Source: Candidatus Altimarinus sp. (GTDB lineage Bacteria; Patescibacteriota; Gracilibacteria; BD1-5; UBA6164). From it: a stretch of 38,966 nucleotides of DNA. Of this stretch, positions 2,148 to 32,792 are shown one piece after another. How positions within the stretch are numbered: position 1 is the stretch's first letter; each line of letters begins with the position of its first letter. Below the pieces are notes generated by a model. That model was not told the DNA's origin, made no database searches, and saw nothing but the letters and a program-made list of their open reading frames with translations. The translations under genes and the position numbers were made by a program. The DNA is taken from positions 1 through 38,966 of the forward strand of contig DYHI01000008.1 of NCBI GenBank assembly GCA_020724225.1. The letters run 5' to 3'.

Positions 2148-2165
2148 CAGTCTTTATTTTTATTT
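2133..2165. terminator. Hairpin terminator between murC and the convergent pilin gene
   Basis: Stem AAAGACTG/CAGTCTTT with a TTTAA loop, followed by a T-rich tail. The murC stop codon lies in the loop and the stop of the convergent gene just beyond the tail, so it can serve both directions. Confidence 0.8.
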
Positions 2166-4695
2166 AAGGTTTATCATTAGTTGAACATATGTATCTTGTT
2201 GTAGAATACATACAACTACCATCATTTATCAAAATCGTTCAATTATTTATAGCTGTAGTATTGAATCAAGTATTCCAAGAGTATAATCATAACCGACATC
2301 AAGCAGTATAATCTCAATTTGGTTCACTATATGTTGAATCTCTTACCCACCATTTTCATCATCATAATGCAGTCCAATTTGAACATCAAGATGCATGATG
2401 TGCAGGACTTCTCATTATACAAGTTGTATAATTTCATGCAACTAATGAATAAATTCAAGGTAAAGCATTAAAGTATGTAGCTCAATATAAGTTAAACATA
2501 GATAACCAATGATTTTTACTACGAGGAACAACCATATCCATACCTAAAGATTTACAAGAATTATTTGCAGAATAGCTTGCTGTAGATATTCAAGATGCAA
2601 CCGGATAATATGTATATCATCATCAATCTGTTTGCATATCACAATATACTGTAAATGGACTTATAGCTCAAGCTCAATCTGGGTCAATTGTATAGTTTCA
2701 ATTTGCAAATACGGTTCAATTCCATGGTGATGATGTTCATACTTTATAATCAGGATTTGAAGATATTAATAAATTATAACAACTAGTTGGATATGTAAGA
2801 GTACCAGAAGGATTTATAAATGTATAAGGAGTTGTTGTTCAATTTCATGACCATTGTAAAACACAACTACTTCAATTCCAATAATATCAAGTTTGGCATT
2901 TAAATTGACAAGTATTTACTGTAGGTGAAGCATTGTATCATGCAGATGTAGCACTTAAAGTTGTTCAATTAAGTGCATTTACTAGAGTATATGATGTAGT
3001 ATTATTGTGATACCAAGCATTTGCAGGTAAACTTGTACATGCTCAGTTAACATATTGTAAACAACTACTTCATCACCAATATGATGAAGTGTTACACTTA
3101 TATTGACAAGTATTTACTGTAGGTGAAGCATTGTATCATGCAGATGTAGCACTTAAAGTTGTTCAATTAAGTGCATTTACTAGAGTATATGATGTAGTAT
3201 TATTGTGATACCAAGCATTTGCAGGTAAACTTGTACATGCTCAGTTAACATATTGTAAACAACTACTTCAATTCCAATATGAACTACTATTACATACATA
3301 TCTACAACTATTACTAGCTCCAGTAATATTATAGGTAGTAGTTGTATCAATAGGAGTCCATGATGTTCAATTCCAAGTTTGAATATATCATGAAACAGTG
3401 TTCCGACTAGAATTAGCTGGTTTAGCATTACATACATAAACTCTACTATTTGGAACACAAGATGTTCAATTCCAAGTATAGTTTGTATTACAAGTAAATC
3501 TACATTCAGTTGTACTTGGTGATATATTAAAAACTCATACATTTGAAGGTATCCAAGTAGTTCAATTCCAATTTTGAGTTATATTTGAAACTGTATTCCA
3601 TGATGCATTTGTAGGTAATCATGTACAAACTACATTTTGAGTATTTGAAACACAAATAGATCAATTCCAAGTATATCAAGTTGCACATATAAATCTACAT
3701 GAATTTATTGATGATGTTATGTTATATTCTGTTACTGAATCATCAGCTGGAGTCCATGATGTTCAATTCCAAGTTTGAGTGTAGTTAGATACAGTGTTCC
3801 AAATTGTTCAAACTTCTGGTTTTGCTCAACATGTGTATGTTCTACTATTTATACATGATGTTCAATTCCATGTATAACCTATTTTACAATTCCATGTACA
3901 AGTTCAAGGAGTATCAGACCTAGTCCAATTTACATATGTAACTTCACTTAGAGCAGTGCTTATTCAGTTAATATCATTTATAGTTCATGCACATCAAGTT
4001 CATGTCTCATTTGAAACCACTGCTACACTAGATATTTTTAAAGATTCTTTGATTTTATTTGTAAGTACTAACATATCATTTGATGTTATTACTTCATTAT
4101 TTTTAAATCATAGGTTGAAATCTCATATCAAACTTCATGTAAAATTTATGTATCATTGTGATTTATATGTATTTAATTCTTGAATTGGAGTATTAGTTCA
4201 ACTTTGAGTTATTATTCATAGTTGATCTCAATAGTATGTTAAATATCTTTTACTATAATCAATTCAATCAGAATATGCTCAATTTAAAAAATATGCAGTT
4301 TTTGATTGATTTTCTAAAAATCACATTAATTGAAATCTTTTTAAATCTTTTGTTAGATAGTATGTATAATAAACTCAGTCTTTTGGATCTTTTCCCCTAT
4401 TTTTTCAACTTGCTCAATAATTTATCAAATCAAGTATAGATTCAGATAAATATCATTGATATGATACCAAGTTTCAATTTAATTGTATATCAACTTTATT
4501 GTCCGGAATTGGAAGTTTTAACTTTATTCTAAAAACTCCCATACTTTTTTTGATTTTAGAAAGTCATTCAAGTCTGCTTGCATCTCTTGAATCAGGTAAG
4601 TATGAAGTAAATGAAACAAATCATATTGTTCATAAAATTCATATAATAGTAGCTACAAACAATAATTCTACAAGTGTAAATGCTTTTTTATTCAT
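2164..4695 (-). CDS. Prepilin-like surface protein with Cys/Trp repeats and fibrinogen-like C-terminal domain
   Basis: 843 aa. The N-terminus MNKKAFTLVELLFVATIIGI is a class III prepilin signal (cleavage after Ala, Glu at mature position 5, hydrophobic helix), so the protein should be processed by prepilin peptidase and built into or attached to a type IV pilus-like fibre. Residues about 30-270 are a non-repetitive pilin-like body. Residues about 270-615 contain five Cys-rich segments of the type C-x3-C-x5-YxWNGxSC, with TWNGTSW between them in the first units. From about 635 a fibrinogen-related domain follows: YPTSCYNLL, YTIDPDGAG, FTVYCDMQTDGGGYT around residues 682-695, then CKSLGMDMVVP. 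The GGG of the hallmark is three TGA codons. The ATG is the only in-frame Met before an upstream stop; AAGGAAG lies 17 bases upstream. Likely an adhesin; the role is inferred, the domains are seen. Confidence 0.9.
2904..3072. repeat. Direct repeat in the pilin gene, copy A (169 bp)
   Basis: Identical over 169 bp to 3102-3270, with a period of 198 bp (66 codons). It encodes one Cys-rich repeat unit, residues about 542-598. Perfect identity at DNA level shows a very recent in-frame duplication. Confidence 0.95.
3102..3270. repeat. Direct repeat in the pilin gene, copy B (169 bp)
   Basis: Identical to 2904-3072. It encodes residues about 476-532. The sequences outside the two copies differ, so the ends of the duplicated block are clear. 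Confidence 0.95.
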
Positions 4696-11247: not shown

Positions 11248-11682
11248 ATGAAGTATTTAAATAAAAAGTCTGGGTTCTCTTTGATAGAAGTAGTTGTATC
11301 ATCAATAATACTTAGTTTAACTGTATTTTGAGTTTATAAACTTATTGCAGAAAATAACAAGATAATAAATAATTCAAATAATTATCTTGATGCAAATATG
11401 CTTATCTCAAATACTATTTCTTGTATAGAAAATCTATCATGAAGTTTGTATCCAACATTTACAAATACTTGAAGTTTTTATTTTGAAAATACTCTAACAT
11501 GAAGATGTATGACTTGAAGTTATAATACTAATTACAATTTTTCATGAGTTACATTAAATAATATAGATTTTAAATTGTACTGAAAAATAATCACTTCATG
11601 AAGTGATTATAATGATTGGAATATATGAGTTTGGAGTGATGTAACTTGAAAGATTGAGAAGGAGTATAGAGAGATGAAGTAG
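11248..11682 (+). CDS. Pseudopilin-like protein with type IV prepilin signal
   Basis: 144 aa. The N-terminus has a short basic leader and the processing site SG/FSLIEVVVSSIILSLTV with the required Glu at mature position 5 and a hydrophobic helix of about 20 residues. The remainder is rich in Asn, Ser and Thr with two Cys (SCIENLSG and GRCMTG), which may pair. Size and build fit a minor pilin or pseudopilin that primes pilus assembly at the inner membrane. I cannot place it in a named subfamily. The distant neighbours at 13146 (another minor pilin) and 2164 (large pilin) suggest parts of one pilus system spread over the window. Confidence 0.85.
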
Positions 11683-13145: not shown

Positions 13146-13775
13146 ATGTTTTATTCAAAATCATGAACTTCTATAATTGAGGCTATGATAGCATTGTCTA
13201 TTGTGATGATTTGAATTACATGACTTTACAATATATATGATAGGTCACAGAAACTAGAAACAGCAACAGAAAATAGAATAAAAGCTATATCAATAGCTCG
13301 CGAGTGAATTGAAGTAATGCAAAATATAAGAGATACAAATTGGATACTTTTTTGAGCAGATACAAAAAATTGTTGGAATTCATTTAATTATGATGTAAAT
13401 TGTCTTTGAAGTACTGATCCAAATCACAAAATTGCTCCATGAAATTACAAAATCTATAAAGATGTTGATAATAGATGGAAGTTGGTTTTATGATCTTTAT
13501 GATTTGATTATACAGATATTTCATTGAGAAATGAATATAGAATTAAATTAGACTCTAATTGATTATATTCACAAAGTTGATGAATAGATTTTAATCCTAT
13601 ATTTACTAGAGTTTTAGAAATAAGTTATCCAGAGGATACAAATTCTGATTGAAATTTTGATGTAAATGATGAAAAGATACTTATTAAATCAATTGTATAT
13701 TGGAAAGATAATACAAAAGATACTCCTTATAATATAGTTCTTGAAAACATACTTACTAATTGGAAGAGAAATTAA
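13146..13775 (+). CDS. PilV-like minor pseudopilin
   Basis: 209 aa. The N-terminus has the prepilin-type site SG/TSIIEAMIALSIVMIGITGL with Glu at mature position 5 and a hydrophobic helix, followed by RIKAISIAREGIEVMQNIRD, a stretch typical of PilV/type II-secretion minor pilins. The C-terminal part is a mixed globular region with DTNSDGNFDVNDE, an acidic Asp-rich loop of the kind that binds calcium in some pseudopilins (inference). It would be processed by prepilin peptidase and initiate fibre assembly. Its neighbours are rlmN (divergent) and the 1386-aa gene (convergent, sharing the terminator), so it is transcribed alone. Confidence 0.87.
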
Positions 13776-13811
13776 AAAAAGAAATCTGGATTTATCCAGA
13801 TTTCTTTTTTT
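13774..13811. terminator. Bidirectional terminator
   Basis: Long perfect stem with arms at 13774-13791 and 13794-13811 (core GAAATCTGGAT/ATCCAGATTTC), flanked by A-run and T-run. It serves the PilV-like gene and the convergent 1386-aa gene, whose stop codon lies in the outer arm. Confidence 0.9.
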
Positions 13812-16800
13812 AGGCAACTTTTTGAAAATCTTCATCATTTATAGGTTCTTTTTTTAATGCATCTGCAATTGATCATCAGGTAAAGTTGATAACTCAAGTA
13901 ACTCATCTGTCTACACTGTGATCTTTTCAATCAAGTCAGTTATTTATATATCTCTCTAAAATTCTTTCAGCTTTTATATTTTTTCATTCTAATAATTGTT
14001 CAGCATTGATGTTGTTATTTCTAAACTCAGTTAAATCAATTCAAAATTTATCAAATATTTTTGAAAAATGACTTCAAGGCTTATTTATTGCTTCTATTGC
14101 ATTTTGGTTTCAAGCATGACTTGCTAATATTCAAGAAAGAAACTCTCTTAAATTTTGTTTTAAAATTGTTTTTTTTATGTTTATATCTTCATTTTTTTCG
14201 TTACTATAGTTTCTTTTTAGTAGTGTTAAAAACTCAGTTTCAACTTCTTCTAATGCAAAATGTCAAAACTTAGATTTATAAAATCATCATCATTGATTAT
14301 ATGATAGAGCTTCTTTTGTAAATTTAAATAAATCTAATCATGAAATTCATTTATCTACAAATGCATCTGACATATAATCATCAACAGTAAAATTTGCATC
14401 AGATTTGTTATAATTTCTGAATAAATCATAGTATTTTTTAAATACTGGATTAGAATCTTTTTCTAAGAATATTATTTTATTTGAAAGACTGTATTCATCA
14501 TTTTTTCAGTCATTTAACATGTACATTGACTTTGTTAGTATTTCTCAATAATCATCAAAAAAGCTTACAGTAGCATCAATTTGATCAGGTTCATTTTTTG
14601 ATCATTGATTATTAATTATTTTTTCTGCTCTAGATAGCATATTTTTATATTTTTCTTCTTTATCTCAGTACAAATCCTTAAATCTTTTTGATAGCTCTAA
14701 TACAGTTTGGTTAAATAAATCAATATCACTTGTTAGAGATATAAATCTAGCTGCTGGTATAATTCTTCATTCACTCATAGAGTTTTTAAATTCATCTGCC
14801 ATTTTTTGATTGAAGTTATATGCTATTCAAGAAAATAACATAACAAAAGGCAATTTATTCATTTTATGCATTGGTCATCATTTTCATATAATTCATTCAA
14901 ACCATCACATTGCATTTGGATATGTTCATCATTTCAATTCATCAATTCATCATGCAATTCTTCAATCTACAGTCCTTTTTCATTTAGAGTCTTCTAATCA
15001 TTTTTCTTTATCTTTTTTCATTCATCATTTCCAAGATCATTCAAACTCTTTATGTATCCTTGATCTTCTGTGTATATGTGTTTTTGGATCTCATCATGGT
15101 TTACATTGCAGTTTTAGTAGAGTATGAACTAATTCTTCTTCACTAAATTGTATTCATGCTTTTTTTGCTTTTTCTTCAGTTTCTCTATATAATTCATCTC
15201 ATATATGTCATCCTAAAGCTTCATACCACAAAAATTTTCATTTATATTTGTATAATTTCTTTGCATAAAGTGTTCAATAACTCTCCATCATAAAAAGTAA
15301 TCATGCTTCTTTTTTATGATTTGGAGTATTACTTGTAAGTAACCACTTTTCTATCATTCAAGTGGCAATTGGAGAATCAACTGATTTAAGTTTTCATATA
15401 TATTCATCCATATGCTTTTTTTCTCATTGTTCTACTCTTGTTCTTAAATCACTTTCTAATTCAATAGGTAAAAACTTACCAAAAACTGATAATGCTACTG
15501 CATTTGCATGCTCTTCATTTCACTCCTTTAAATAATGTTGAATAGAATCAAATCATATTTTTACTCATTTAATTATTTCTGCTACAGATTTGTTTGAAAA
15601 AAGCCATTTTGAAAAACTCCATTTTCTGTCGACTCAGTCAGGAAGTTTTCCTTTTTTCTTATCATTCGCTTCATTTAATGCTCTTGGTTCAAGTTTTTTT
15701 GATTTAATATAATCTTCTAAGAAACTTACACTTACTTCATAAGTTTCATTTTCTGTTTCAAATATTTCTCACTTTTTTTCTTTTTTTTCTTTTTCCGCAT
15801 AATCATCAGTTTTTACTTCTTTTTCATCAAGTATTTTTCAGAAGCTTATTTTAACTTTATTTCAGTTTACTGAGTGAATTTTAACTAATTCATCTTTTCC
15901 ATCTTTTGTAGCTACTAGATAATCATATGTAATTCATGTCTCACTTTCTTTTTTAACTATTTTATCATTTTTTACCTCAAAATCTCACCACATTTTTAAT
16001 TTTTCATTTTTTGTAGCAAGTTCTGGAATTTTTGAAAAATCTGTATTATTAGATATTCTTTTTATATCGTGATCTTTAAAAAGTGAATAAAATTCTTCAA
16101 AAGATCAAGTAGATAATTGTCAAATAGCATTTTCAACTGTTATTTTTTTTGTATTTTTATCAATTTCTGTTATAGTAAATATGTCTCATTCTAATTTGCT
16201 TCATGATTTGCTTGCTTTTATAGTCACTCATTCTTTTAGTCAAAAATCTTTTCAATTTGGATCTAATAAATCGATTTTTTCTAATAAGAAATTAAAATTA
16301 TATGATTCTAAATTAATTCATAATTTATTATCAATATCATCTAATTCATAAATTAAATTTGTAACTTCTTTATTTGCTTCAAGTTCATCTAATGTTTTTC
16401 AATGTGACATTTTATTTAATTCTTCTTTTATTTCATTTTTTCTTGCAGTTAAAAAATCAAAATCACTTTGATCTTTAAAATTAATATCATCTCATGATTC
16501 ATTAATTTCTCAAGAATTTATTTTTGATTTTATTTCTTTAGATGTAAAAAAATCTATTTTTGTTACTAAATTATTATTTATTATATAAAATAGTGATGCA
16601 TAATATCATGTTGAAATTTCTAATGTGCTAGAATTGTTATAACTATTTTCTTTTGAAGATCTATCACAAAAAGTAAATGTTCAATCATCTTGAAAAGATT
16701 TTATCTCTAAGTATGTGTAGCTTTCTTCCTTGCTTCTCTCATTATCTTTGGTAGATAATCTTATAATAATTCAATCATTTAGTAAAGTATCAATATTTTT

Positions 16801-17970
16801 ATAATCTTGACTTGAAATTTTTCTTTGAATTTGAGGGGTTGAGTGTATTTTTTCTTTAAATAGAGCTAAGTTATCAATACTATTTAGATAAGATTCTCTA
16901 AGTCACTCAAGTGATTTGTTGTAAGTGTCTACAAATGTTTTTGCTATACTAATATTTCATGCTAAACTATCTAATTGGTTTGAGTTTAGGTAATTTATTA
17001 TATCGCTTGATTTAACTATATAATCATTAAAATCAATATTTTCAATGATATAATTTATTTCATTTTCTGATTTATTTCAGTGTTTTATTAAATCATCTTT
17101 TATTTTATCTTTTCATTGAATTTCGCTATATATTCATGTTTTAATTAAATCTCATAGAGATAAAAATGGAACAAATTTTGATAAAAAAAATTTTTTATCA
17201 TCTTCTGAAAATATATCTTTTTCAAATAAATCAAAAACTATACTTAAATCAATTTTTTTAAGTGACTTTAATCTGTTAAATAATTCTCTTAACTCTTCAA
17301 TTGAATTATTATAAGAATTTACTCAAATTTTGTTTACAATTCTATTTTTTATTTCTTCTGAAATATCTACTCATGATAATATGTCTTTAATTTCTCTGTT
17401 TTTTATTTCTTCTGAAATATCTGTTCATGATAATATTTCTTTAATTTCTCTTTTTACATCTACTTTTTTTAATTTAACTTTACTTTTTCAAAAAAGGTTT
17501 ATTAACACTTCTTCTCTTTTTTTATCTATTCCTTTAATTAACTCATTAATTTCCCCTTCACTAAATAAATCTAATTGATTATTTAATTTTTTTATTTTAG
17601 TATCATCTAATTCATATTTACTTATATAATAATTTTGTAATTCATTTTTTCTATTTTCTATTTGAAATGATAATACTCTAATTTCATCACTAAACATACT
17701 AAATAATTCATCAATTTTTGTTGAATCTATTGAATCAATTAATTTTTCGTATTTATTTTTTTCTGTTTCACTTAAACTATCAAATAACTCTCATTTAAAG
17801 TCATTTGAAGTATATTTATTTCATTTGAATTTTGGATAAAATCAATCTTCTTTGATTTTATCCTTTGCTAATTTTTTTGTTTTTCTTTTAATTAAATCAT
17901 TAAAAGAGTTCTCTCTTTTTTGAAGTTCTTCTTTTGATTCATTTTGATTTGAAGAATTTATATCTGTCAT
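13810..17970 (-). CDS. Giant 1386-residue protein of unknown function
   Basis: I do not recognise this protein. It is one continuous UGA=Gly frame with no signal peptide and no clear membrane span. Residues 1-420 are charged and look helical or coiled-coil; an 18-residue unit (REIKEILSGTDISEEIKN and its near-copy) is repeated in tandem at about 17346-17453. A middle part (about 560-760) contains beta-rich segments with GVTIKASKSGSKL and ATKDGKDELVKIHSVNGN, which look like small barrel or SH3-like modules. From about 800 to 1200 a compact region has LPDGVDRKWSFSKWLFS, GLLFMMESYGTLY, CKPGGDPKTHIHRRSRIH and FEGIIGKGGPMHKMNKLP. The rest is helical and ends in INDEDFQKVA. It is monocistronic, starts with MTDINSSNQNESKEEL and ends in the bidirectional terminator. 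Possibly a large cytoplasmic or leaderless-secreted protein. Confidence 0.9.
17346..17453. repeat. Two tandem 54-bp units inside the 1386-aa gene
   Basis: The coded units REIKEILSGTDISEEIKN and REIKDILSGVDISEEIKN differ at two residues. The DNA copies are near-identical, showing a fairly recent in-frame duplication. Confidence 0.8.
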
Positions 17971-31506: not shown

Positions 31507-32103
31507 ATGAAAAATTTTACATTAAACATTTGAGTGACAAAAAATACAGTTTTTAGTGTAAATGAATTATCTCAAATTATAACTAATACTTCAGATAACT
31601 CATTAAGACAAAAGATAACAAATTATGTAAAAAATTGATATATAGAAAAAATTTATAGATGAATTTATTCTATTCCAAATATGAAAGTAAATCTTTTTGA
31701 ACTTTCAAATAAAATATATTCTCCCAGTTATATTTCATTTTTTTCAGCTTTATACCACTACTGAATAATTTTTCAAGTAAATCCATCAGAAATTGATATT
31801 GCATATAAGAAATCCCAATCTATAAAAATAGAAAATCTTTGAATAAATATTCATTTAAGATGTTTAAAACAAGATATTTTACTAAATCCTGAATGATTAA
31901 TTATAAATGATACCTACACTATTGCATCGCCTGAGAGAGCTTTTTTAGATACAATTTATTTATATAATAATATTTATTTTGATAATATTGAACCTCTAGA
32001 TACAAATAAAATAATAGAACTTATTCCAATCTATAAAAAAGATGCAATGATGAAGAAAAGGGTTATAAAATATTTTCCTAATTTAAATTTATGAATGCTA
32101 TAA
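31507..32103 (+). CDS. AbiEi-type antitoxin / transcriptional regulator
   Basis: 198 aa. The N-terminal winged helix (FSVNELSQIITN, SLRQKITNYVKNGYIEKIYRGIYSIP) and the following SPSYISFFSALYHYGI and ASPERAFLDTIYLY are the marks of the AbiEi antitoxin family. AbiEi represses its own operon and counters the AbiEii nucleotidyltransferase in a type IV toxin-antitoxin system that can protect against phage. The 3' end overlaps the toxin start by 13 bases, as usual for this module. It contains several TGA Gly codons, so the pair is adapted to the recoded genome rather than newly arrived from a standard-code host. Confidence 0.85.
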
Positions 32104-32792
32104 TAGCAAAATTAGATAGACAAACTCATAGGAGTATTATGCTGAATATTTTGTTAAAAATTTCTCAAGATCCAATATTGGCTAGAAACCTTGTTTTTAA
32201 ATGATGAACTGCTCTATACTTTATTTATAAGCTACCTAGATTTTCTACTGACTTAGACTTTGATTTAGTTGATACAAAATTAGAAAATGATATTTTAAAA
32301 AAAATAAATAATATATTGAAACAATATTGAGATGTAAAAGATTTAAGGATTAAAAAATATACTATTTTTGCATTGCTTTCGTATTGAGATATAGACCATA
32401 ATATAAAAATTGAGATAAATCGTAGATGAGTTATGTGAAATTTTGGTTTTAAAAATTTTATGTGAATACAACTAAATATAATGAATTTAGAAGATATGTT
32501 TGCAAATAAGCTTATTGCTTTAACAACAAGAAATAGATTGGCAAATAGAGACATTTTTGATATTCATTTTATGTTAAGTAATTCATTTAAAATAAATGAA
32601 AAACTTATTTTGAAAGAAACTTGAAAGAACTTACAGGAATATGCGAAATATTGTATAGATTTTTTACAAAAATTACCTAAAAATCACTCTATTTTGGATT
32701 GATTATGAGAAGTTTTGGATGAAAAACAAAAGGTCTTTGTAAAAAATAGCTTAATTAATGAAACTATATTTCTATTGCATAGTTTGATTTAG
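32091..32792 (+). CDS. AbiEii-type nucleotidyltransferase toxin
   Basis: 233 aa. VFKGGTALYFIYKLPRFSTD followed by LDFDLV is the GG-T-AL and D-x-D core of the AbiEii/DUF1814 nucleotidyltransferase family (about residues 37-60). The later segment MNLEDMFANKLIALTTRNRLANRD contains the family's catalytic-region Lys and the RD-x-FDI motif. Length is somewhat short for AbiEii (about 250-300) but all core motifs are present. Such toxins add nucleotides to tRNA 3' ends or other targets and stop growth. The start ATG lies within the antitoxin gene. Confidence 0.87.

Follow-up and report, generated by a model that had tools for sequence, protein, structure and literature searches.

We propose that an 843-amino-acid prepilin of a Candidatus Altimarinus sp. 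genome is a minor type IV pilin of modular build, acting as a pilus adhesin with a receptor-binding head, a reading to which we assign a probability of roughly 70%. It is encoded on the minus strand at positions 2164..4695 of the window, by which we mean the whole stretch of 38,966 nucleotides that was analysed. The initial annotation had named a pilus tip adhesin as a plausible role; its prepilin signal, stalk and GGGWT motif are supported below, and a pilus adhesin is the likeliest role. The C-terminal head belongs in part to a protein family of cyanophage virions, and pilins with related architectures form a large gene family in the order, some members of which are targets of diversity-generating retroelements (DGRs).

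Gene and genomic context

The source genome comprises 1.17 Mb on 54 contigs and is approximately 95% complete. The gene is an open frame under genetic code 25, in which TGA encodes glycine, and contains 70 in-frame TGA codons that are read in this way; its previously assigned limits, 2164-4695, proved exact, and the strand is minus. It is convergent with a murC-like gene (594-2147) and follows a beta-CASP RNase gene that has the same orientation. The gene is solitary and outside any pilus operon, which counts against the adhesin reading. Since homologues from the same and from other genomes span every part of the protein, a chance open reading frame is ruled out.

Several other features of the window were recorded. 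The murC-like gene carries in-frame inserts at 785-815 and 1465-1545 that read VIPAKAGIY and represent a dispersed palindromic repeat, similar stretches of which occur within other genes of the source genome (L013). Two more small prepilins, PilV/ComGE-like, are encoded on the plus strand (11248-11682 and 13146-13775). Judged by reading alone, a 1,386-aa protein on the minus strand (13810-17970) has no obvious assignment, and a gene pair on the plus strand (31507-32792) resembles an AbiEi/AbiEii-type toxin-antitoxin or abortive-infection pair.

Prepilin signal, pilin module and stalk

The protein starts with MNKKA followed by FTLVELLFVATIIGILG. Residues 1-30 (4606..4695, minus strand) form a class III (type IV prepilin) signal, MNKKA/FTLVE, with a hydrophobic helix, as indicated by Pfam N_methyl (21.7 bits, cut-off 21.2), TIGR02532 (18.8 bits, cut-off 16.3) and matches to geopilin and PilA in the PDB. 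Both profiles score above their cut-offs, which bears out the type IV prepilin signal that had been noticed from the letters of the sequence. The glutamate at +5 is present, and alanine stands at -1 in place of the usual glycine. The signal is part of a pilin module (residues 1-228; 4012..4695, minus strand) that recurs in many of the large pilins found in this genome and its order. It shares 43% identity over approximately 280 residues with the pilins on contigs C8 and C14, and the closest modules among named relatives stem from 'Candidatus Gracilibacteria' genomes. The source genome encodes three T2SSE ATPases, a T2SSF platform protein and an A24 prepilin peptidase (28.5 bits, cut-off 26.5) as pilus machinery. 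With a pilin module joined to a C-terminal domain that is not pilus-specific, the protein is a modular pilin.

Repeat analysis resolved a stalk of six cysteine-rich repeats of approximately 66 aa between residues 229 and 612 (2860..4011, minus strand), in agreement with the repeat stalk of the initial annotation. The first unit is shorter (54 aa); each of the five full units has four cysteines, and all end with a W[NG]G[TS][SI]C-type motif. Units 5 and 6 (2860..3255, minus strand) reflect a recent duplication of 198 nt with 94% identity. Residues 229-625 contain 29 N-x-S/T sequons. The annotations DUF6087 and DUF5874 for the stalk were discarded, as their scores were far below cut-off. Cys/Trp repeats of this kind also occur in the C16 pilin of the source genome, and the same repeats were seen in a 2,458-aa surface protein with SLH, Kelch and RCC1 repeats (L014 1199-8575, contig C23).

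A head composed of a GGGWT subdomain and a phage-shared domain

The C-terminal head (residues 635-843) includes a fibrinogen-type GGGWT subdomain, CDMQTDGGGYT, at residues 639-695 (2611..2781, minus strand). The NCBIfam model GGGWT_bact (NF040941) matches residues 664-695 with 45.4 bits (cut-off 30), and Pfam Fibrinogen_C, with a cut-off of 22, reaches 18.0 bits on the full protein and 27.0 bits on the isolated head, in both cases over approximately 31 residues. The whole of 635-843 had been taken for a fibrinogen-like domain. Profile searches uphold this for the start of the region, namely the GGGWT motif within the first approximately 45 residues, and not beyond it; the remainder of the head is shared with phages, and its predicted fold is C-type-lectin-like. 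An ordinary fibrinogen C domain over 635-843 was rejected as the best description and is treated below as a rival. A eukaryotic origin as signalled by the GGGWT motif was also set aside, since related domains occur in Myxococcota, Bacteroidota and phages.

The PHROGs family phrog_15727 matches residues 661-843, up to the last residue, with E 4e-34 for the whole protein and E 8.5e-36 for the isolated head (profile positions 120-308 of 308). A tblastn search retrieved 11 cyanophage records with 34-38% identity (best E 4e-23). These homologues are annotated as virion structural proteins. In S-PM2 and S-CAM4, the respective gene immediately follows a tail-fibre gene; in P-RSM6 a single gene separates the two, which puts it two genes downstream. 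More relatives were found in IMG/VR; a single-sequence scan of viral contigs with the head gave no confirmed relative. On the bacterial side, G045 has the same head on a stalkless 414-aa pilin, G058 has it on a secreted protein that is not a pilin, and another copy was found in G040. One IMG/VR contig (L086) carries adjoining genes with pilin-like N-termini and GGGW domains, which resemble PilV-type adhesins of a mobile element.

Predicted fold of the head

An AlphaFold2 model of residues 654-843 (2167..2736, minus strand), based on an alignment of 24 more diverse rows, reached a pLDDT of 85.3 and a pTM of 0.83; a first model of residues 625-843 from a 20-row alignment had a pLDDT of 33.6 and was discarded. 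According to this model, the head looks like a C-type-lectin-like fold. The best 50 structural matches in VIA-align were all C-type-lectin-like (Z 7.4-6.3, rmsd 3.1-4.0), the best of them with an rmsd of 3.2 over 125 residues and a Z of 7.4, which is below the level where a shared arrangement would be beyond doubt. In Foldseek, the superposition on C-type lectin domains covered the greater part of these domains, with TM scores by target of 0.43-0.58. Fibrinogen chains were matched only locally, with TM scores that did not exceed 0.25 and an rmsd of mostly 10-15 Å. The best BFVD match was M4SKW9 (TM 0.83 by query, 33% identity), a protein of 419 aa, the same length as the P-RSM6 virion protein.

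Motif conservation was compared in 24 aligned bacterial and phage heads. The EPN motif at residues 791-793 (2317..2325, minus strand) appears as EP[NS] or DPS in 24/24 heads, and the ND of a WND-like motif at residues 824-825 (2221..2226, minus strand) is invariant; the tryptophan is replaced by I, F or Y. Framework cysteines are found at 714, 800, 828 and 837, and probably pair as disulphides. All four bacterial heads contain the pattern EP[NS]...C...ND...C...Y[IV]C. Most cysteines are absent from the phage heads, which keep E/D-P, the following D, and ND. The head does not match the pattern of PROSITE PS00615, and we see in it no clear counterpart of the calcium-site glutamate and the tryptophan that classical sugar-binding C-type lectins have. 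For this reason, we regard sugar binding as a candidate activity.

Alternatively, the head could be a genuine fibrinogen-related domain similar to those of ficolins and tenascins, and the lectin likeness of the model an artefact of a shallow alignment. The GGGWT_bact and Fibrinogen_C matches would fit this, as would a profile of the head that finds FIBCD1 (E 5e-6) and, over positions 7-148 including WW...NG.Y, tenascin-R (E 1.7e-4). A further profile (A1), in which other heads of the order predominate, reaches E 1e-10 to 1e-14 against tenascin, ficolin and tachylectin, with alignments that span most of the domain. However, the superposition on fibrinogen chains is local and that on C-type lectin domains extensive, the 50 best VIA-align matches are without exception C-type-lectin-like, and the four cysteines together with EPN and ND fit a lectin pattern. 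Moreover, the calcium-site DxD...NCA stretch visible in FIBCD1 is absent from the head, where the aligned stretch reads MRSPAHHASGCS. A fibrinogen-related head is hence unlikely for the 843-aa prepilin. Across the order, fibrinogen-type and lectin-type heads may exist side by side; another possibility is a GGGWT subdomain that serves as a common adaptor.

An order-wide family of GGGWT pilins

GGGWT_bact scores at or above cut-off in 51/77 genomes of the order, and in 4/380 genomes sampled across the phylum, the source genome being one of the four. A survey for the same fusion in related genomes, as suggested earlier, thus found it lineage-wide in the order, and the view that the architecture is uncommon does not hold there: it belongs to a large and often tandem gene family. 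From the genome stretches that were fetched, we parsed approximately 45 distinct proteins that combine a GGGWT motif with an N-terminus of the prepilin type. Many have a size of 400-450 aa, and several genomes contain tandem arrays of three to five genes. Outside the order, one fusion of 329 aa was detected in the same class (G336) and one more in a record named Patescibacteria (L097). Some members of the order bear GGGWT on secreted non-pilins; at L057 (contig C11 of G060), such proteins have a signal peptide in place of the prepilin signal, and one of them contains three GGGWT motifs.

Among 39 of the GGGWT pilins, mean pairwise identity was highest in the GGGWT subdomain (0.51), lower in the pilin module (0.35) and lowest in the rest (0.17), and similarity of the pilin modules was uncorrelated with that of the heads (Spearman rho -0.001). 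Within tandem arrays, pilin modules are 36-60% identical and the regions after GGGWT 12-23%, the values in array L060 being 60% for the pilin modules and 14% for the rest; alignments at such low identity are near noise, so that most heads are as good as unrelated and the values do not measure a rate. In the source genome, the heads on the other large pilins comprise GGGWT (C16 and C22), FGE-sulfatase (C33), LamG (C6), a propeller (C20) and a List_Bact repeat (C8).

Diversity-generating retroelements on sibling pilins

Contig C33 of the source genome (L017) contains a complete DGR that targets a modular pilin with an FGE-sulfatase head. FGE-sulfatase heads have a C-type-lectin fold. The pilin (59-1627) has 522 aa and the same pilin module as the 843-aa prepilin, and the reverse transcriptase (3133-4182; RVT_1, 73.4 bits) is encoded downstream. 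The variable repeat (1511-1616) spans 106 nt and ends 8 nt before the stop codon, and 8/9 mismatches are located at adenines of the template repeat (4163-4268), which overlaps the end of the reverse transcriptase gene and extends past it.

Related reverse transcriptases are present in 18/77 genomes of the order, and 10 of the 14 stretches examined contain a pair of template and variable repeat. Besides C33, these are L287, L290, L291, L292, L294, L295, L297, L298 and L299. Over the ten loci, 159/165 mismatches occur at template adenines, a fraction to be read in light of a screen that kept pairs with an adenine fraction of at least 0.7 and could miss other kinds of pair; the segment limits are almost independent of which base is favoured, and the p-values of single loci serve as a rough guide. 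Of the ten targets, contig ends truncate two. The other eight, for which the upstream part is on the contig, all have a prepilin signal or pilin module: seven are full-length with a prepilin start, and in one the pilin module is recognisable. DGR targets of CPR clade 2 are reported to be typically without recognisable domains (PMC8144416).

For the 843-aa prepilin gene itself, neither a template repeat nor a second copy of 2164-2500 was found in the approximately 95% complete assembly, and we therefore do not claim it as a DGR target. An IUPAC scan for the codon pattern of WWxR..EPxGDY gave no match.

Proposed role

On processing by the prepilin peptidase, which would cut off the MNKKA leader, the N-terminal helix and pilin module may allow the pilus machinery to insert the protein into the filament. 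Given the bulk of the protein, the tip is its most likely position. The cysteine-rich repeats could keep the head at a distance from the filament, and the head, a GGGWT hairpin followed by the C-type-lectin-like domain, would bind a ligand at a surface, for which a glycan of another microbe is the most likely candidate. The genome-wide set of pilins with a shared module and different heads might thereby provide a repertoire of binding specificities. The adhesin may be used on host or prey bacteria, which we infer from lifestyle reports for the group (PMC11452946). The phage homology, the hypermutated heads of sibling pilins and the fact that heads diversify independently of the pilin modules lend further weight to host contact.

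A different cause of this variation would be escape, with the pilus serving as a phage receptor or exposed antigen and binding not being what drives the heads apart. Pili are common phage receptors. It has also been proposed that cellular DGR targets may diversify in virus-host arms races (PMC8144416), but the variation is located in C-terminal folds of the binding type and the pilin module is comparatively conserved, and escape is an improbable explanation. There is similarly little to recommend a pseudopilin or a subunit for secretion or DNA uptake whose head binds DNA or a secreted substrate and no other cell: type IV filaments of the group have also been proposed for these functions (PMC11452946) and the N-terminus has weak GspG/GspH/ComG similarity, yet the lectin-like, phage-shared head, the diversification of heads and the hypermutation seen in siblings suggest ligands that are external and changing.

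In a broader and tentative extension of the adhesin reading, for which we see slightly less than even odds, this order of Gracilibacteria-type Patescibacteria with code 25, episymbionts or predators, would recognise other bacteria through a large set of swappable pilin tips, some with heads of a phage family and some hypermutated by DGRs, as a changeable, phage-like host-range system on pili. One conserved pilin carrier would hold exchangeable heads, which in some genomes a retroelement keeps changing. For the question of how ultrasmall Patescibacteria choose and attach to their hosts, these pilins offer specific candidate receptor-binding proteins. The common head connects cellular pilus adhesion with virion proteins encoded beside phage tail fibres, and because of this kinship the heads are testable on co-occurring bacteria.

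Comparison with known systems

Taken singly, modular pilins, GGGWT domains and DGRs have precedents. The fusion, the phage-shared head, the order-wide expansion and the repeated targeting of modular pilins by DGRs were not found in the open-access literature searched, which is an incomplete selection and leaves room for an earlier description.

Bdellovibrio, an attacker of bacteria, has a repertoire of phage-like mosaic adhesive fibres with swapped tips, which differ from modular pilins in being trimeric and not pilins, and for which no common sequence has been demonstrated (PMC10769870). DGR variable proteins have C-type-lectin heads; the sibling pilins are such targets, and the 843-aa prepilin shares a C-type-lectin-like head but has no template repeat. 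With GGGWT_bact and Fibrinogen_C domains, the prepilin shares the GGGWT subdomain (residues 639-695), whereas the rest of its head belongs to another family with another predicted fold. The phrog_15727 proteins of T4-like cyanophages (S-PM2p092 and others) share the head domain to the C-terminus; they differ in being located on virions, in having genes next to tail-fibre genes, in mostly having no framework cysteines and in having no pilin module.

PilX2 of Saccharibacteria, from an episymbiotic patescibacterium, is a minor pilin that carries an additional C-terminal domain, as does the 843-aa prepilin, and is needed for full host binding; its head is a propeller, and the accessible part of the report describes neither a head repertoire nor a phage-shared head (PMC12206443). 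As a class, modular pilins are established (PMC8179133). The modular adhesive pilins PilB and PilC of Streptococcus sanguinis resemble the 843-aa prepilin in their N-terminal pilin module, large C-terminal module and predicted tip position (PMC8179133, PMC9934059). PilB and PilC are shown adhesins, and the 843-aa prepilin is a proposed one. Compared with PilB and PilC, the 843-aa prepilin is distinguished by its GGGWT/C-type-lectin-like head, its long cysteine-rich stalk and the multigene family to which it belongs within an order of Patescibacteria (CPR).
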